Origin: Trachythela sp. YZ-2020
Taxonomy: Eukaryota > Cnidaria > Anthozoa > Malacalcyonacea > Clavulariidae
Assembly (NCBI GenBank): GCA_016169945.1
Contig: JADLSH010000373.1
Coordinates: 1,116,001-1,180,000, forward strand
Reading direction: 5' to 3'
Length of the DNA stretch: 64,000 nucleotides
Below the pieces are notes generated by a model that ran no database searches, had not been told where the DNA came from, and saw only the letters and a program-made list of their open reading frames with translations. Position numbers and translations under genes: made by a program. Below are positions 35,313 through 46,289 of the stretch, piece by piece. Position 1 is the stretch's first letter. The number at the start of each line of letters is the position of its first letter.

Positions 35313-35323
35313 TAGAAGCAAGT

Positions 35324-36762
35324 TATCCTGCTGCTGTTGGAGAATACTTCATCGCCTTGCCTTAATAAATACATAAATTGGAACATTTTCCGTTGAATAC
35401 TTAGTTTATCCTGCTGCTGTTGGAGAATACTTCATCGCCTTGCCTTAATAAATACATAAATTGGAACATTTTCCGTTGAATACTTAGTTTATCCTGCTGC
35501 TGTTGGAGAATACTTCATCGCCTTGCCTTAATAAATACATAAATTGGAACATTTTCCGTTGAATACTTAGTTTATCCTGCTGCTGTTGGAGAATACTTCA
35601 TCGCCTTGCCTTAATAAATACATAAATTGGAACATTTTCCGTTGAATACTTAGTTTATCCTGCTGCTGTTGGAGAATACTTCATCGCCTTGCCTTAATAA
35701 ATACATAAATTGGAACATTTTCCGTTGAATACTTAGTTTATCCTGCTGCTGTTGGAGAATACTTCATCGCCTTGCCTTAATAAATACATAAATTGGAACA
35801 TTTTCCGTTGAATACTTAGTTTATCCTGCTGCTGTTGGAGAATACTTCATCGCCTTGCCTTAATAAATACATAAATTGGAACATTTTCCGTTGAATACTT
35901 AGTTTATCCTGCGTATTTTGGAGAATACTTCATCGCCTTGCCTTAATAAATACATAAATTGGAACATTTTCCGTTGAATACTTAGTTTATCCTGCCGCTG
36001 TTGGAGAATACTTCATCGCCTTGCCTTAATAAATACATAAATTGGAACATTTTCCGTTGAATACTTAGTTTATCCTGCTGCTGTTGGAGAATACTTCATC
36101 GCCTTGCCTTAATAAATACATAAATTGGAACATTTTCCGTTGAATACTTAGTTTATCCTGCCGCTGTTGGAGAATACTTCATCGCCTTGCCTTAATAAAT
36201 ACATAAATTGGAACATTTTCCGTTGAATACTTAGTTTATCCTGCCGCTGTTGGAGAATACTTCATCGCCTTGCCTTAATAAATACATAAATTGGAACATT
36301 TTCCGTTGAATACTTAGTTTATCCTGCCGCTGTTGGAGAATACTTCATCGCCTTGCCTTAATAAATACATAAATTGGAACATTTTCCGTTGAATACTTAG
36401 TTTATCCTGCTGCTGTTGGAGAATACTTCATCGCCTTGCCTTAATAAATACATAAATTGGAACATTTTCCGTTGAATACTTAGTTTATCCTGCTGCCGCT
36501 GTTGGAGAATACTTCATCGCCTTGCCTTAATAAATACATAAATTGGAACATTTTCCGTTGAATACTTAGTTTATCCTGCCGCTGTTGGAGAATACTTCAT
36601 CGCCTTGCCTTAATAAATACATAAATTGGAACATTTTCCGTTGAATACTTAGTTTATCCTGCTGCTGTTGGAGAATACTTCATCGCCTTGCCTTAATAAA
36701 TACATAAATTGGAACATTTTCCGTTGAATACTTAGTTTATCCTGCCGCTGTTGGAGAATACT
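35324..36762 (+). repeat. 83-bp satellite, left block (about 17 units)
   Basis: Each unit contains TTCATCGCCTTGCCTTAATA, then ACATAAATTGGAACATTTTC, then CTTAGTTTATCCTGCTGCTG and TTGGAGAATA. The period is 83 bp (for example 35347, 35430, 35513). Main variants are TGCTGCTG against TGCCGCTG, one TGCGTATTTTGG unit near 35911 and one three-base insertion near 36490. The block stops at 36762, exactly where the 7.4-kb transposon begins, and the broken unit continues after the transposon. Confidence 0.98.
36755..36762 (+). repeat. 8-bp target-site duplication, left copy (AGAATACT)
   Basis: AGAATACT sits immediately left of the terminal inverted repeat and is repeated at 44161-44168 immediately right of it. 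In every uninterrupted 83-bp unit this sequence occurs once (TTGGAGAATACTTCATCG), so the empty site can be read directly from neighbouring units. Confidence 0.97.
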
Positions 36763-37385
36763 ACCGTGGCTCTGAGGGGCCATGCATGATCTTTTTTATT
36801 TTTAACAATTTAAAGAAAATCAAAAGTTTATTTATTGTGTGGAAATATTTTCCCACTTGATTGCGTTCTAAAAATTCAATTGTAATTTTTAATACTTAAA
36901 CATATAACTCGAAATTTGGACGAATAACACGAAATTTCGTTTTGTAACACGCAATTTTGAATTATAGCGCGAAAATCCCACTTGTAAGCGAAACTTCGAC
37001 TTATAATATGAAATTTCGACGTATAACTTGGAACTAACGGTTTATAACACGCAATTCCGACTTATAACACGAAACTTCGAATTATAACACGAAGTTTCGA
37101 CTTATAACACGAAATTTCGACTTATAACTTGAACTTACGGTTTATAACACGCAATTCCGACTTATAGCACGAAACTTCGAATTATAAAACGAGATTTCGA
37201 TTTCTAACACGAAATTTCGACTTATAACTTGAACTAACGGTTTATAACACGCAATTCCGACTTATAACACGAAACTTCGAATTATAACACGAAATTTCGA
37301 CTTATAACACGAAATTTCGACTTATAACTTGAACTTTTATGGTTTATAACACGCAATTCCGACTTATAGCACGAAATTTCCACTT
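36763..37385 (+). repeat. Left terminal inverted repeat with 20-bp subrepeats
   Basis: The outer roughly 260 bp match the right end almost base for base. The inner part is a tandem series of about 20-bp variants around AACACGAAATTTCGACTTAT and AACACGCAATTCCGACTTAT, interspersed with ACTTGAACT-AACGG segments. This arm (623 bp) is about 100 bp longer than the right arm because it holds extra subrepeats. Repeated subterminal motifs are usual transposase-binding sites; here that role is inferred. Confidence 0.95.
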
Positions 37386-37496
37386 GTAAACGAAACTTCG
37401 ACTTATAACACGAAATTTCGACTAAATCACGATACTAATTTCTTAATTGATTATCAAGTATTATTATCATTTTGATTTGGGAGCAACTGGTACTGG

Positions 37497-38941
37497 ATGC
37501 TGTTTATCTGTCTGGTCAAGCTGTTAACAGTGGAGCTATTCGACCCATATATTATGTTGCTTTTCCTTGCTATTTGTATGGTATCATTCTATCTACCAAT
37601 TTTGTCGTCAACCTACCAAGATCGTAACAGTTTGATTGTGAGATACTTTGAACTTGGATTCTCTCATAAAGAAATTTTAGCGTTTTTGTCAGTATATCAT
37701 GACATACAAATCTCGTTAAGACAACTCAAGCGCATCTTATCTTCCAATCGATGTTACAGAAGAAAGAATCATTCCGAAATAGCCGATGTTGTTGGTACAA
37801 TAGAACAGGAACTGAAAGGAAGTGCAAGTGATGTTGGATACAGACAGATGCACCAAAGGTTGAGAAGTCAGCACAACCTTGTGATTTCCAGAGAAGTAGT
37901 TCGTAAAACGATTTGTGCTTTAGATCCAGAAGGAGTTCGACAGCGATCACTAAAAAGGTTCCAACGTCGAGCGTACGCAGCCCGTGGTCCAAACGATACA
38001 TGGCACATCGATGGTTACGATAAACTGAAGCCTTTCGGTTTTGCGATACATGGAGCGATTGACGGGTATAGTAGGCGTATCCTGTGGTTGGAAGTTGGTC
38101 AATCGAACAACGATCCTAAGATAGTTGCACAATACTTCCTGGATTACTTAAAAAAGATTGGTGGCACCGCCTGTAGAATTCGTGGAGATTGCGGGACTGA
38201 AAATTGCATGGTAGCGAGAATTCAACGTTTTCTGCGACGAAATGATCCCGACTGCTTTGCAAATGAAAAAAGTTTTATGTATGGTAGATCAGTGGCTAAT
38301 CAAAGAATTGAAGCTTGGTGGTCGTTTCAACGGCGATGGGGGATCAATTGGTGGATAAATTATTTCAAGGACTTGCGTGATAGAGGTAATTATGCGTGAT
38401 TATGAATGATAATTAATGATTACAATACTTTATTGTAAATGACGGTTCATGTTCATATAAATGATATGTTAATAATAAAATGCTAACAACGTTTATTTTG
38501 TTGCCAAATAATTGCACGGATTTGCTTGTAGGTATTTTTCGCGATGATGATAATATACACAAAGAGTGCCTGCGTTTTTGTTTCATGCCAGTTTTACGGG
38601 ATGAATTATATTCGATTGCATTCCATTGGAATACACATAGCATACGTCCCGTGCACAATTCCGAAACTCCACATGGTAAACCTGATGTTTTATACTTTAC
38701 ACCGGAAACACAAGGACACGGGGACTTTAAATTTACACCAGATAACTTCATGTTAACCCTTGAAGCAGCAGAAGAAACATATTGCACTCGCGAATCTGTG
38801 TGGAGTTGCTCTCCCGAGTTCAAAGAACTGGCAAGCATGATAATGGAGGAAGACGAACTGGAGATTCCTAGAAACGCAGCAGACGCAGAAGATTTGTATA
38901 TTCGTATTGTATCCTCTATTGAATCAACTCGCACTGCTTGA
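37497..38941 (+). CDS. Integrase-fold (DDE) transposase, two exons
   Basis: Exon 1 is 37497-38385 and exon 2 is 38532-38941. The GT at 38386 and AG at 38530-38531 join RDR-G to IFRDDD in frame (phase 1). Around residues 48-90 (LGFSHKEILAFL.. to RRK) is a helix-turn-helix-like DNA-binding region. The catalytic core has WHIDGYDKLKPFGFAIHG (Asp172), RIRGDCGTEN (Asp231) and NQRIEAWW (Glu272), giving D-x58-D-x40-E. Exon 2 adds FCFMPVLRDELYSIAFHWNT and HSIRPVHN, the usual C-terminus of this family. The integrase fold is shared with retroviral integrases and IS3/IS481-type transposases. The first roughly 35 residues are hydrophobic and do not fit the family, so the true start may be a later Met or an upstream exon. 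All catalytic residues are present. Confidence 0.9.
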
Positions 38942-40060
38942 AAGAAAAACTGTCAATACAGTTTGGTACACAAGACAGCTTTACTGCGCTGCTTGTAGAA
39001 ACGGCCTTTTTAACAAACCAACTATACGCCATCTAGCCAGATACTCCTTAAAAAGTACATAACTAAAAGAACATATCTAAACGATATGTTCTTTTAAGCA
39101 ACGCCGCGGACAAACGTCTGCGCAGGCGCCAAATTGTGAAATTATGGCGGTATCAATTTTAAAACAAAACATGCTTATTAATTGATAAAAAATTGGTAAT
39201 ACAAAGGAAAACTATAGAGTAAATAAAATATACTGTAAAGTATAAGAAAATATAGAAAACGGGTAAGCGTCCTAGCACTTAGAGTATGGAATGAATTTGA
39301 ATTTGTACAAAAAGTTATTATTTTAACCGGAATATTTGGTCTAATATTATACAAAACAAAGTTCAAACCAAAAATTTAAGGAGATAAGCTTCTTAACCCG
39401 CTCAACTTGTAAATTAAATCCTAAAGTTTAATTATTGTGAACGCGAAATAAAACTTCGGAAAGTATCGCTGCACAATAGTTTTAGGTCATGTCCTGTACT
39501 TCCTGGCGCATTTTTCGCTGACCTAGTTTTTAGAATATAATAATAGCCTGTTAATATATTTAAAGGCAAGGACAAACGAGTGTATGCAACCATGCTCAGA
39601 CGTTTTCCGCGATGTTCTATGATATTAATAGGCACTTAAATGAAAAAGAACCTTAAAGGTGATGTAAAGTCCGTTCTGTATATAATATTCTTACTGTTCA
39701 CGTTCTATTTTGTAACACGATATAGTGAAATAATTAAATCAAAATTCCAACGGTCGAGTCCCGATGTTTGGAATCTCGAATGGACATGACATTACCTTTA
39801 ACAATCAGTGTTTGAAAGAATATTAATTTTCTTGTCAGTCAGAAAAAAGAAGTACACTATACTATATTTTGTGTACAAAGAAATTGCGCAATACACTATT
39901 GACACGTATATAGTAAAAGTAACTCAACAAAACTAGAATGTTTCTTTTTTCTGTTCGTTTATCCTTTAGTGTTTTTAATATTATAAACGTAAACATTTAA
40001 TGTCAATTGTATATAGTTTATATCATGACCAAATAAAACTCAAATGTTTCTTTCCTGTTG
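38942..40060. other. Intergenic region inside the transposon, with strong hairpin
   Basis: No gene recognised between the convergent 3' ends. At 39064-39096 there is a perfect 14-bp stem (TAAAAGAACATATC / GATATGTTCTTTTA) with a 5-base loop TAAAC. A GC-rich patch follows (about 39,105-39,135). Confidence 0.7.
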
Positions 40061-43000
40061 TTACTCGGACAATTTCCAAAGATGGATGTTTGTTAAATAG
40101 AATTCTAAATTTTCCTTTAGTTGCGAAAAGGACCCATACTGTCTGGGCAGTTTTAGAACCTTGAAACAGGTCGCTCCAATTGGTCGAAGATGATTCGGAG
40201 GTTGATCTATGAAGCTAACACTGATCATTCTCTGCGGCAAAAGCATTGGTAGAGACGTACAAAACTGAACTAGCCGCCTCAACAACATTTCGTTTGCATC
40301 ACGAATGAACCTGGTTAACCATCTTCCGACTTTGTTATCGGTCTCGCACGACTCCTGGAAGGCAAGAGCGTCAATCAGTTTATCTGCAGTGGGGACACAC
40401 GACCTGTAAAGACTTCGGATTTCGTTAGCGGTGACCGTATCCCAGAAGCGTCCCATTCCCTTCCTGAGATTGGTGATGAAAAAGAGGTTTGCTGACAAGA
40501 GACAACCGAGCAGCATTCAGAAGTATCGATGAAAGGTTTTCTTTCGTTGGCAACGTGGTAATGTTATAATCAGCTAATACATCAATGATTTCTTCGCGAT
40601 TGAACTGTGTAGACTCGTTATCCAAACTGATACGAAAAACATTGCGGTCGTTGGGAGAAAACGTGTTTAGAAACGATGATAGCAGGCATTCATTCGACAC
40701 GCGTTAAATAAACAATAGTGCAACAGAGCTTCACTTGCGAACTGGAAACATTTGACAGCTTATAAACATATGGGTAATAATCTTTCCAATTGCTTCATAA
40801 TCTAGCTCGTTAAGTTGAACCGTGAAGATAGGAACACACTCACCACATCCTTCACAGTACTTCAAGAAGAATTCGTCCCAAAACGACGAGAACACATCAA
40901 AGGTAACGCCATCACCGTTCCCATTCTCATCGCAAAATCTGAAACAGGCTTTCTGCGTGAGATCAACTATCCCATCTCTATAATATCGCAAGAGTTCGGT
41001 AAAAACGTTGTCTCGCTGAACTTTGTAATCGTGATCCACGTAACTATACGGTTGCAAAGATTTTTGCTAGGTTTTGCTTCAGGAAAAGTGTTTCGTACGA
41101 TGTTGAAAATTCTTCATCGTAGCTGTTTTCATCTGGTACTTTATGCGATGTCACTGGCTCACAAATACTCTCACGTAACGGTTGGTCTGTCACGCCACCA
41201 AAACCCTGAAAGAAAACCTCGCCACTTGGCGAGAGAGGTATAGGTCCCTCCGCTACCTCCATGAACAAGGTGCACTTGTGAACTGAGCTAATTGGTTCAC
41301 TTGGGGAAATTTCTTCTCCTGGAACTTTGCATAAACGAAAGTGCTCTGGCAAGTCATTCAAAGAACCTATCCAGTCGTAAACAAAACTTACAGTTCCGGT
41401 TGGAGGAAAACATCTTGATTGCAGTCCCATGTCAACATGTCTTACATTGACTGTAACTGCGTCTTCCAATATGCTTAGTTGTCTTGGCACTCGACTGGTG
41501 CGTTCAATTCTGAGATGGTGAATGCGCTGCATTTCCATGGATCTTCTATCTGCGTCTTCGTTGGCTTCTTGAATTTTGATAAGGTCAGCAGCTTGGGACA
41601 ACTGGAAGGCGTTGTCTTGTTCAGCAACGAGGTCTGCTCTTTCACTCGAAGATCCAATCAAGCTAGTGATTGACGGTTCAATGTCTGTAAACCAGTCATT
41701 CTCATAGTTAAACAGTGCTGGAGGAAGAGATTCAGTCTCACTTGATTCATCATCTTGGATAATAATTTGATAATTATCTGGTAATTCCTTTTTCTCTTCT
41801 GGCATTTTACTAACGGAAGTGGAAGATGCTGAACTACATGTAGGCACCGGTTTTGGCAGTTGCTTTAGACGACTCATAAGATATAGGCGAGCTCTGTTTG
41901 TTTTGCTTATTTCATAATATTTCTTTACTGAGAAATCATGAACTTTTCCATTTTCATCTGATAACGTTGATATGAGGTCTCCTTTATAGTTTCCAACATT
42001 ACAATCCATGTCATCCAAGTTACCAAAAGAACTTTTTCCACCAGGAAAAAAAATTGATGACGCTGTTTTCTCAACCATTTTGCTATTAGCTTCTACATGC
42101 AAGTCAATATCTCTTGTACCTCCACCTTTCGACATCCTAACAGATACATATCTTTGCTGCTGCTCATTGTAGTGCATCCATCCAATTTGAACTTTCTTTG
42201 AAAATTTCGACCTTTTAACACTTCTTGCCTCAGATGATTCCCCTTTTCGTTTTGTACCAGATGCTTTACTAGCTTTGTCAGACTGCAATTGTTCTATCAG
42301 TTTCAGTTTCCTCTTCTCCCTTTCTTCATGTTCCACTGAATCATTTTCTCGAGAGTCAGTGACAAATACTTTCAGACTAAGGATATCACCTGTTTTAAGA
42401 CCAAGACTTCGCAGTGTATAATCGGACGCATGACTAATCGCCACTGGATCCATCTAAAAATGTAAAATCGTAAATCTAAGTTAATCAAGACAACAGTCAT
42501 CCACAAATGCAACAATCCAAACAGATGCTTTATTGTTTATAAATTAATCCAATATCTTTGCAAACTGTGCGTAATATTTGTAATTAAAAATATGAAGATA
42601 ATAGCCTCCCATGTGCAGTATAAAGCGATTCTATATTTAGAAGATTAAATATATGATATCTTGTTGTTCAATTTTTCCCTCTTATATATTTGATGCCAAT
42701 TTTAATAAGGGACTGGTCATATTTATTGATTTAACCAAAATGCTTAACCTGCCTTTAGAATCTACAAACTTCTGGTAACTCACCAATTTAACCACTATTA
42801 GACTGTACAGAGGAGAAGTAGTCAATGAAAACCATATATCATATCAGTATAAGCAGAGGCATTCATCCCCCCTGGAAATATTAAAGCTTATAGCTAGCAG
42901 GAACATGATGGCGGCTATGCAGGGTATAATCAAGTGTGTTACTGCGGAGAATAAACTACTAATTATGTCGTGAATTAGGAACGTTGTTACATTGTTTATT

Positions 43001-43561
43001 ACACTAAGTACATAGTTTTAGGGTCAGCGGTCAAACAGTGGACTCGTATGAACGTTTAGACCACGTTTTAAGTTTATGTTTTGTATATAGTTAAAGATCG
43101 AGTGGTCAATAAAGATTAATACATAAAGGTTGTCTTTCTCGACAAATTAGTAGGACTTACGCTTTTTCTACTCTAGTGATACCTCTTGATGATACCTCTA
43201 CTTAATGGGTTAAACAGTGTGGTGTAGGTGTATGGCCTATATGCACTAGTTTACAAACGCAAACAAGTTTACAGTATAAGATAACATAACACTCACATTC
43301 TCTAACACGAATCTCTCCACAACCTCTTCTTTAACACCACGACCTCGTAAAAATGACCCAACCTGCACATGAATAATGTAAAGCATACAAAATATTAATA
43401 TATTTACATAATCGCAAAATAGATATTGCAAGTTTCATCGGATGAACCGAAGCCAATACACAATATTAAGTCAGTATAAACCGACTGAACTGGGTGTAAA
43501 GAACGACAGAAAGAAGCAAACCTACCTCAAACAACGACAAACACTTCTTCCCAGACGCCAT
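40061..43561 (-). CDS. SAM-like / ubiquitin-like / HECT E3 ubiquitin ligase of the transposon (HECT part frameshifted)
   Basis: Exon 1 is 43561-43526 (MASGKKCLSLFE), exon 2 is 43362-43297 (VGSFLRGRGVKEEVVERF..) and exon 3 starts at 42453 after TTTTTAG. Both introns are GT-AG and phase 0. Exons 1-3 together form a SAM-like helical domain ending DYTLRSLGLKTGDILSLKV. A basic linker (KRKGES..KRSKFSKK) follows, then a beta-grasp/UBX-like domain (VTVNVRHVDMGL..FVYDWIGSL). A HECT N-lobe (RDNVFTELLRYY..GDGVTFDVFSSFW..FPVR) and C-lobe follow, with ISVSFI and PIGATCFKVLKLP; the Cys codon at 40166-40168 fits the catalytic thiol. The family charges itself with ubiquitin and passes it to substrates. Frame breaks lie near 41,055 (possibly a small intron), 40,730, 40,700 and 40,470, so this copy is probably inactive unless these are assembly indels. 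Confidence 0.85.
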
Positions 43562-43639
43562 CTTTGAAAATGCAATAAACTTGCAAATTTGCAATGGTTT
43601 GACTTATTGACTCAGTAAAATGTCCAGATTTCGTGTTAT

Positions 43640-44160
43640 AAGTGGAAATTTCGTGCTATAAGTCGGAATTGCGTGTTATAAACCGTAAGTTCAAGTTATA
43701 AGTCGAAATTTCGTGTTATAAGTCGAAATTTCGTGTTATAATTCGAAGTTTCGTGTTATAAGTCGGAATTGCGTGTTATAAACCGTTAGTTCAAGTTATA
43801 AGTCGAAATTTCGTGTTAGAAATCGAAATTTCGTGTTATAATTCGAAGTTTCGTGTTATAAGTCGGAATTGCGTGTTATAAACCGTTAGTTCCAAGTTAT
43901 ACGTCGAAATTTCATATTATAAGTCGAAGTTTCGCTTACAAGTGGGATTTTCGCGCTATAATTCAAAATTGCGTGTTACAAAACGAAATTTCGTGTTATT
44001 CGTCCAAATTTCGAGTTATATGTTTAAGTATTAAAAATTACAATTGAATTTTTAGAACGCAATCAAGTGGGAAAATATTTCCACACAATAAATAAACTTT
44101 TGATTTTCTTTAAATTGTTAAAAATAAAAAAGATCATGCATGGCCCCTCAGAGCCACGGT
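43640..44160 (-). repeat. Right terminal inverted repeat with 20-bp subrepeats
   Basis: Inverted counterpart of 36763-37385, 521 bp, ending CAGAGCCACGGT. The first exon of the HECT-type gene (start codon at 43561) lies only about 80 bp inside this arm, so the arm or its inner edge probably contains the promoter of that gene. Confidence 0.95.
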
Positions 44161-45492
44161 AGAATACTTCATCGCCTTGCCTTAATAAATACATAAATTG
44201 GAACATTTTCCGTTGAATACTTAGTTTATCCTGCTGCTGTTGGAGAATACTTCATCGCCTTGCCTTAATAAATACATAAATTGGAACATTTTCCGTTGAA
44301 TACTTAGTTTATCCTGCCGCTGTTGGAGAATACTTCATCGCCTTGCCTTAATAAATACATAAATTGGAACATTTTCCGTTGAATACTTAGTTTATCCTGC
44401 CGCTGTTGGAGAATACTTCATCGCCTTGCCTTAATAAATACATAAATTGGAACATTTTCCGTTGAATACTTAGTTTATCCTGCCGCTGTTGGAGAATACT
44501 TCATCGCCTTGCCTTAATAAATACATAAATTGGAACATTTTCCGTTGAATACTTAGTTTATCCTGCTGCTGTTGGAGAATACTTCATCGCCTTGCCTTAA
44601 TAAATACATAAATTGGAACATTTTCCGTTGAATACTTAGTTTATCCTGCCGCTGTTGGAGAATACTTCATCGCCTTGCCTTAATAAATACATAAATTGGA
44701 ACATTTTCCGTTGAATACTTAGTTTATCCTGCTGCTGTTGGAGAATACTTCATCGCCTTGCCTTAATAAATACATAAATTGGAACATTTTCCGTTGAATA
44801 CTTAGTTTATCCTGCCGCTGTTGGAGAATACTTCATCGCCTTGCCTTAATAAATACATAAATTGGAACATTTTCCGTTGAATACTTAGTTTATCCTGCTG
44901 CTGTTGGAGAATACTTCATCGCCTTGCCTTAATAAATACATAAATTGGAACATTTTCCGTTGAATACTTAGTTTATCCTGCTGCTGTTGGAGAATACTTC
45001 ATCGCCTTGCCTTAATAAATACATAAATTGGAACATTTTCCGTTGAATACTTAGTTTATCCTGCCGCTGTTGGAGAATACTTCATCGCCTTGCCTTAATA
45101 AATACATAAATTGGAACATTTTCCGTTGAATACTTAGTTTATCCTGCTGCTGTTGGAGAATACTTCATCGCCTTGCCTTAATAAATACATAAATTGGAAC
45201 ATTTTCCGTTGAATACTTAGTTTATCCTGCCGCTGTTGGAGAATACTTCATCGCCTTGCCTTAATAAATACATAAATTGGAACATTTTCCGTTGAATACT
45301 TAGTTTATCCTGCCGCTGTTGGAGAATACTTCATCGCCTTGCCTTAATAAATACATAAATTGGAACATTTTCCGTTGAATACTTAGTTTATCCTGCCGCT
45401 GTTGGAGAATACTTCATCGCCTTGCCTTAATACATTAATTGGAACATTTTCCGTTGAATACTTAGTTTATCCTGCTGTTGTTGGAGAATACT
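44161..45492 (+). repeat. 83-bp satellite, right block (about 16 units) with target-site duplication
   Basis: Begins with the second AGAATACT copy (44161-44168) and continues the unit interrupted at 36762. The last units are slightly diverged (TACATTAATT near 45430, TGCTGTTG near 45473), and the array ends in unrelated DNA after 45492. Confidence 0.97.
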
Positions 45493-46289
45493 TACCATTG
45501 AAAATTTAACTTGATGATCCGCGTGGTCGTGTATTGCTTTTGGAGGATGCTTTACTGAAAATATTCTTATACTGGTTGGTTAATGGTTATACAATAACTG
45601 GACTGGTCGTGTTATTTGTGCCCAGCAGGTGTCAAGATTCCTATTTGTTTTACGTTGGAAAGGCGGCGTATGATCAGCTTTTTACCGTCTTTGCACAGTA
45701 AAAATTTGGTTATGCCTCTACTTTCCATTATTCTTTATTGCTTTGAGAGTACTGAAGAAAACCGGTGTGTAAGTATGTACTGTGAAAGGTGAATCTATAT
45801 ATAAACTAGCTGCGGTATGGTCGTCGCTGAAATGAGGTAAGCTTATCAAGTTTTGTTCAGATATTGTAGATCGTGAATAGAAATTCAATATGCAAAACGT
45901 AACAAAAATGTAAAGTTTTGCTGTAGAAATGAATATTTCGCTTGTAATGTGTGCATAAATTTTAATGAAAAAGTTCGCTCAGAACGCAGGAAATTGCATT
46001 TCCGAGGTCCTAGATTTCAAGTCCCCCCGGACCCCCCTACAGTTACGAGTGCATGTTCAGTATAGTGCATCAGTCAGTATAACTCCCTGGATCCGCCCCT
46101 GTCTGCGCGTGCGTATATATGAAAAGTGTTCATCCCACAATCAAACGACAATCAAACAGCATTCAAAACAGACCAACACACCACGCGCGATACCCTCAGC
46201 TACCATGTAATTACAATATTAAGATAAAGAGATATATTAACTAGATTTTTATATGGTATTACTTTCTATAAAATGACAATGTATGGACA
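45493..46289. other. Gene-free stretch
   Basis: No coding signature. The stretch near 46,018-46,100 (CCCCCCGGACCCCCC and CCTGGATCCGCCCCTG) looks like the end of an interspersed repeat, but no boundary can be fixed. Confidence 0.45.

Follow-up and report, generated by a model that had tools for sequence, protein, structure and literature searches.

We analysed a 64,000-nt stretch of the cnidarian Trachythela sp. YZ-2020 (contig JADLSH010000373.1, positions 1,116,001 to 1,180,000; hereafter the window), in which a mobile element of 7400 bp with TA..TA termini occupies positions 36762..44161. Between its terminal inverted repeats (TIRs) lie two spliced, convergent genes, as an initial annotation made from the sequence letters had proposed, one for an integrase-fold transposase on the forward strand and one for a HECT-type ubiquitin ligase on the reverse strand, both starting near the inner TIR edges. 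The element is a young, recently moved copy of a DNA transposon, and its boundaries follow from the TIRs and from two further complete copies in the host genome.

Termini, target site and the two genes

The element interrupts an 83-bp satellite array (35323..36761 on the left, 44162..45493 on the right), and removal of the element together with one target-site duplication restores the register of this satellite target, which had been recognised at the outset, at 98.8% identity over the junction; shifting the junction by 1-2 bases leaves only 21-33%. The duplication is the 6-bp GAATAC (36756..36761 and 44162..44167) and not the 8 bp with AC..GT ends that had first been read here, a reading overturned by the copy L009, which shows a perfect 6-bp CTGAGG on both sides only with TA..TA ends and would require two mismatches to be read as 8 bp. 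The 8-bp appearance arises because two of the three copies of the family, those of the window and L008, sit in A-N6-T sites, so that the flanks of either are compatible with 6 or 8 bp. Under TA..TA ends the duplications are GAATAC in the window, AGTGAC in L008 and CTGAGG in L009, and the 6 bp in L009 does not fit the superfamilies with 8-bp duplications (hAT, MULE, P and Merlin). The inverted termini are exact, as first described, with the first 331 bp identical, although each boundary has to be moved outward by one base from where it was originally placed.

The left TIR (36762..37308, forward strand) measures about 547 bp, its inner part being a subterminal array, and is mirrored by the right TIR (43615..44161, reverse strand); arms of 557 nt are 96% complementary. 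The left array (36903..37423, forward strand, delimited with TRF) repeats a 20-bp unit about 26 times, and many of its units contain the 10-bp palindrome CGAAATTTCG; the mirror array (43628..44020, reverse strand) has about 20 units. This palindrome is found 11 times in the element, six times at the left end, five times at the right end and never between them, and the palindromes are candidate transposase binding sites.

The transposase gene can be read as one unbroken spliced frame (432 aa), with exon 1 (37497..38385, forward strand) encoding an IS3/IS481-like helix-turn-helix and the integrase core, a GT..AG intron (38386..38531) and exon 2 (38532..38941). Pfam assigns rva_4 (5.5e-34), rve and HTH_21 and no other families. 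The core residues D172, D231 and E272, exactly placed in the initial annotation, are conserved in 120/121, 121/121 and 121/121 proteins, respectively, in a set formed by the window protein and the 120 best of 1187 relatives (P0001-P0120), among which the named ones come from the corals Montipora and Acropora. Five relatives stop at the same position, two others are just as short, and these seven form one clade with the window transposase (support 1.0). NCBIfam searches at E up to 0.1 matched IS481 in 26/26 and IS3 in 23/26 members, with P0003 reaching neither curated cut-off (37.5 of 224 bits and 34.9 of 160 bits). For the predicted model of P0003, with a predicted local distance difference test score (pLDDT) of 71.7, the first 12 Foldseek matches are IstA, CAST TnsB, Tn7 TnsABCD and Mu complexes (E 2.9e-7 to 4.6e-5); judging from the model, the transposase appears to share a fold with IS21, Tn7 and Mu, and we claim no more than that.

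A secretion-signal-like hydrophobic N-terminus, often followed by a VLPxYxP-like motif, is seen in 86 of the 89 related transposases with a long N-terminus (30 of the 121 surveyed were too short to judge and two lacked the anchor), and in 28/30 after clustering at 70% identity. As a control, an equally hydrophobic window elsewhere in the same transposases was found in 24/121. Within the window's clade of eight, the window protein (37497-37600) and P0001 show the segment, the other six being too short to judge. Such a start is odd for a nuclear enzyme.

The HECT gene runs convergently from a predicted start in exon 1 (43526..43561, reverse strand, placed by splice signals) through exon 2 (43297..43362, reverse strand), a weak SAM-like segment, to exon 3 (40061..42453, reverse strand), which encodes an unnamed conserved domain, a FAF1-type linker with a UBX-like part, and HECT. 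The HECT domain with its catalytic cysteine, already noted in the initial annotation, is recovered by Pfam at 4.8e-10 in the window piece and at 9.2e-11 in P0121, a relative with 71% identity, lies above the cut-off in 4/4 relatives reaching the C-terminus, and keeps the cysteine in 5/5 aligned sequences. For the UBX-like domain, a FAF1-type assignment is supported at the family level, with Pfam UBX staying below its cut-off: a profile of the HECT family matches the FAF1 linker (EQD) plus UBX at E 3.7e-6, with HECT C-lobes at best at E 0.014, and the relative P0127 from the sea anemone Actinostola matches FAF1 at 8.8e-7. This single profile matches parts of FAF1 and of HECT ligases such as WWP1, ITCH and AREL1; what sets the family apart is that one transposon-encoded protein combines them. 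The SAM-like start, a spliced segment of 64 aa, gave no SAM match in Pfam or PDB. Upstream of the UBX part, a conserved stretch (exon 3 residues 86-195) carries no Pfam name at the cut-offs, and the A1 and A2 profiles gave no match against PDB sequences at E up to 1.

Recurrence of the gene pair and selection on the ligase

The host assembly (G000; 578 Mb, 396 contigs) is the one genome searched for copies, and a 138-bp TIR probe gave six matches in it, including the two further complete copies L008 and L009. All three complete copies found of the window family carry both genes, so that none of the complete copies found with these termini lacks the HECT gene. Two further families, represented by L040 (8145 bp, duplication GTATTG) and L044 (8520 bp, duplication GATCAG), have TA..TA ends with both genes between them and HECT proteins that are about 30% identical. 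Overall, exact 6-bp duplications with TA..TA ends were found at five insertions of three families among the seven elements read; no second end was found for L041 or L043, and in L009 and L044 the first eight bases of the two ends have one mismatch.

Beyond complete copies, the HECT search with P0121 gave at least 68 matches (57 of 289 first-look candidates scored) in 44 loci, and the transposase search with P0001 at least 137 matches (133 of 1514 candidates scored) in 132 loci, both locus lists being lower bounds. Among the matches listed, an rva_4 transposase lies within 12 kb of 25 of the 44 HECT loci, compared with 0.24 pairs computed for random placement, and in 25/25 of these pairs it lies downstream of HECT on the opposite strand, across HECT proteins roughly 26-74% identical to P0121. 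A tblastn search of the 121 transposases against 30 of the 68 HECT match regions adds C128, C197 and C255, raising the count to at least 28/44, with flanks read at a minority of the 16 unpaired HECT loci. Of 19 distinct loci where the 3' half of HECT could be inspected, 17 have the transposase within 1.5 kb, the exceptions being C320:610477 and C170:1622610. Seen from the transposase side, a HECT locus is nearby at 25/132 loci, with 15 among the best 20 matches and 21 among the best 38, which suggests that HECT is a hallmark of one lineage among the rva_4 transposons and not of all of them. The initial suggestion that transposase and ligase belong, at least in part, to one transposon system is supported by the complete copies, the convergent pairs and the two further families.

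Some observations on individual copies stand apart from the pairing. L009 is nested in the terminal repeat of a related element, with rva_4 fragments on both sides (C320:577534-578400 and 586826-587581). Between the window TIRs and those of L008 and L009, the differences are entire blocks of the subterminal array, 100 bp, 200 bp or 220 bp long, and the remainder of the element is nearly identical. A scan of genome contigs outside the host gave one contig, L001, which is sponge-associated and was deposited in the bin of a bacterial symbiont; it bears a degenerate rva_4 transposase with 17-18-bp tandem repeats and inverted copies of them, and is probably host DNA in a bacterial assembly. Scans of viral contigs, with four proteins and a TIR pattern as queries, gave no relative.

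The HECT gene is under selection. From 30 HECT regions, 18 open frames were compared, the listed pairs having at least 45% identity and 120 codons (the frame of L022, with 59 codons, was unusable). All 33 listed pairs, which are non-independent and of which many close ones rest on few substitutions, are in line with purifying selection: 25 have a ratio of nonsynonymous to synonymous substitution rates (dN/dS) of 0-0.57 and eight a saturated dS. Copies at 63% identity have a dN of 0.26 and saturated dS, and proteins that stay this similar while synonymous sites are saturated indicate selection. The domains are also more conserved than the linkers, with 59/72 (P0121) and 52/72 (P0122) identical residues in the HECT C-lobe and 26/57 and 15/51 in linker 2. 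Within the window family, the differences among the three copies are too few to show selection, with 0-1 synonymous and 0-2 nonsynonymous substitutions.

As assembled, exon 3 of the window HECT gene has four frame breaks, near 41061, 40736, 40701 and 40484, and in the alignment with P0121 (579/785 residues identical) no in-frame stop. Its frame is open in L009, at 799 aa and 99% identity to the window copy, so that, as assembled, the HECT frame is intact in one of the three copies. It is possible, though we lean against it, that the window HECT is truly dead and that the element now moves only in trans. The four breaks themselves speak for this, as does the fact that one of them is common to the window and L008, which has three indels relative to L009; between the genes, moreover, substitutions outnumber indels as in ordinary DNA decay, by 6 to 1 (against L008) and 2 to 1 (against L009). 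Against L009, however, exon 3 shows two substitutions but four small indels, all of them bases missing from the window copy, and further 5' the gene differs by four indels without any substitution; so many indels for so few substitutions suggest assembly error. Nor does the window HECT carry a surplus of unique amino-acid changes (36 vs 47, p 0.27).

Relation to IS3EU and other known systems

Taken together, we consider it very probable that the window element is an IS3EU-type DNA transposon and that the convergent HECT ligase is an integral component of its lineage. The superfamily itself is already known, and this branch of it stands out by a ligase with HECT and UBX-like parts that recurs in convergent orientation. 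Like IS3EU/GingerRoot, a Repbase superfamily, the element combines TA..TA ends, which PMC10045372 describes with usually 6-bp duplications, with an IS3/IS481-like DDE transposase. Its ends, of the type TACSG..CSGTA, resemble the TAYGG..CCRTA that PMC12730594 gives for fungal IS3EU. This comparison is one of ends, duplications and domains. Unlike described IS3EU elements, the lineage has an rva_4 transposase, long TIRs, subterminal arrays and the recurrent convergent SAM-like/UBX/HECT ligase.

Accessory enzyme genes beside the transposase are shared with fungal IS3EU elements, which according to PMC12730594 carry TET and alpha-kinase genes, the kinase in opposite orientation to the transposase; here, in an animal, the enzyme is a ubiquitin ligase, there, in fungi, a TET dioxygenase and an alpha-kinase. 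The words HECT and ubiquitin are absent from the main text of both PMC10045372 and PMC12730594, and no HECT-carrying transposon was described by title or abstract among the matches listed from the open-licence literature. An IS481-like transposase core is likewise shared with the IS481EU elements of parabasalids, which are given in PMC10045372 with TNT..AYA ends and duplications of ~4, ~15 or ~25 bp, unlike the TA..TA and 6 bp found here. The likeness of the predicted transposase fold to phage Mu, Tn7 TnsB and IS21 IstA, as the first Foldseek matches suggest, would be a mechanistic analogy only, these being bacterial systems without ubiquitin.

Several observations weigh against reading the ligase as an integral, p97-linked part of a Mu-like transposon. 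Both frames are open in 0/3 copies as assembled, with the HECT frame broken in the window, the transposase frame in L009 and both in L008, and the window/L009 pair runs opposite to purifying selection, with no synonymous and two nonsynonymous substitutions. Pfam UBX stays below the cut-off in 4/4 full-length relatives (E 0.0056-0.091), a search with the UBX segment of P0122 alone found no UBX structure, and the p97-contact loop is only partly kept; the predicted HECT model is too poor for use (pLDDT 38). The Mu- and TnsB-type fold matches at ranks 1-12 have root-mean-square deviations of 17.7-26.6 and TMq of 0.20-0.27, and foamy-virus integrases come out slightly ahead by Z (12.0 vs 11.4 for TnsABCD). 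Finally, among the matches listed, no HECT locus falls within 12 kb of 107/132 transposase loci, and the ligase may be dispensable for some rva_4 transposases, unless it was missed or is supplied in trans. This last count would also fit a HECT gene that is a captured host gene or a nested insertion riding along, which we nevertheless regard as very improbable: gene order and orientation are the same in every pair over a wide range of HECT divergence, all listed HECT pairs have dN/dS below 1 or saturated dS, and both window genes start close to the inner TIR edges. The recurrent convergent pairing largely refutes it.

At positions 1-23015 of the window, a 1671-bp unit is repeated in tandem ~13.8 times, the copies being 98% alike, and between 24708 and 63358 nine of the ten open reading frames scanned outside the element match domains typical of mobile elements (reverse transcriptase, endonuclease, hAT dimerisation, Helitron and PIF1 helicase, DUF1759, and DUF5641 with H2C2 and rve).

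A possible role for ubiquitin and p97

DDE enzymes act by strand transfer, HECT ligases pass ubiquitin on via their cysteine, UBX domains bind p97/VCP, and the transposase complex of phage Mu is dismantled by the ClpX unfoldase. By analogy with ClpX on Mu, we tentatively propose, as the favoured but still less than even possibility, that ubiquitin and p97 dismantle the strand-transfer complex of the element. The transposase would bind the subterminal palindromes, cut at TA..TA and join the ends into a target with a 6-bp stagger; the ligase would then attach ubiquitin to the transposase, or to proteins present in the complex, and the UBX part would bring in p97/VCP, so that a very stable strand-transfer complex might be pulled apart and host repair could finish the reaction.

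Instead of its own transposase, the ligase could target host silencing or repair factors, such as small-RNA or chromatin repressors, which p97 would clear, an anti-silencing role as thought for the TET of fungal IS3EU. We rate this as somewhat unlikely. The accessory TET and alpha-kinase genes given in PMC12730594 would fit it, as would the selection on HECT, and the SAM-like and UBX parts might act as adaptors to substrate and to p97; the same sequences, however, read equally as remodelling of the transposase complex, no host target is known, and repeated association with a single transposase lineage is at least as easily explained if the transposase is the partner of the ligase. The ligase might also limit transposase dose, ubiquitinating its own transposase for degradation and keeping copy number tolerable, in line with the recurrent pairing and with the three complete copies of the window family recovered with the TIR probe. 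This seems quite unlikely, as a brake encoded in cis would be expected to be lost by faster copies, yet selection on HECT persists.

Returning to dismantling of the strand-transfer complex, a wider version, which we consider unlikely at present, would be that an entire lineage of IS3EU-type elements in animals encodes its own ubiquitin-p97 machine for stripping or licensing its transposase, in the way that ClpX acts on Mu transposase in bacteria. Given the secretion-signal-like N-terminus of many related transposases, the p97 module might in addition extract the transposase from the endoplasmic reticulum before it reaches the nucleus.

For genomes of this kind, our findings imply that expanded families of HECT-ligase genes may in part be made up of transposon genes, and counts of such families would change accordingly. 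They also extend the idea, raised by TET in fungal IS3EU, of a superfamily that recruits host-modifying enzymes. Moreover, a transposon with its own ligase and p97-type adaptor makes the disassembly of stable eukaryotic transposase-DNA complexes, a long-standing question, directly testable.

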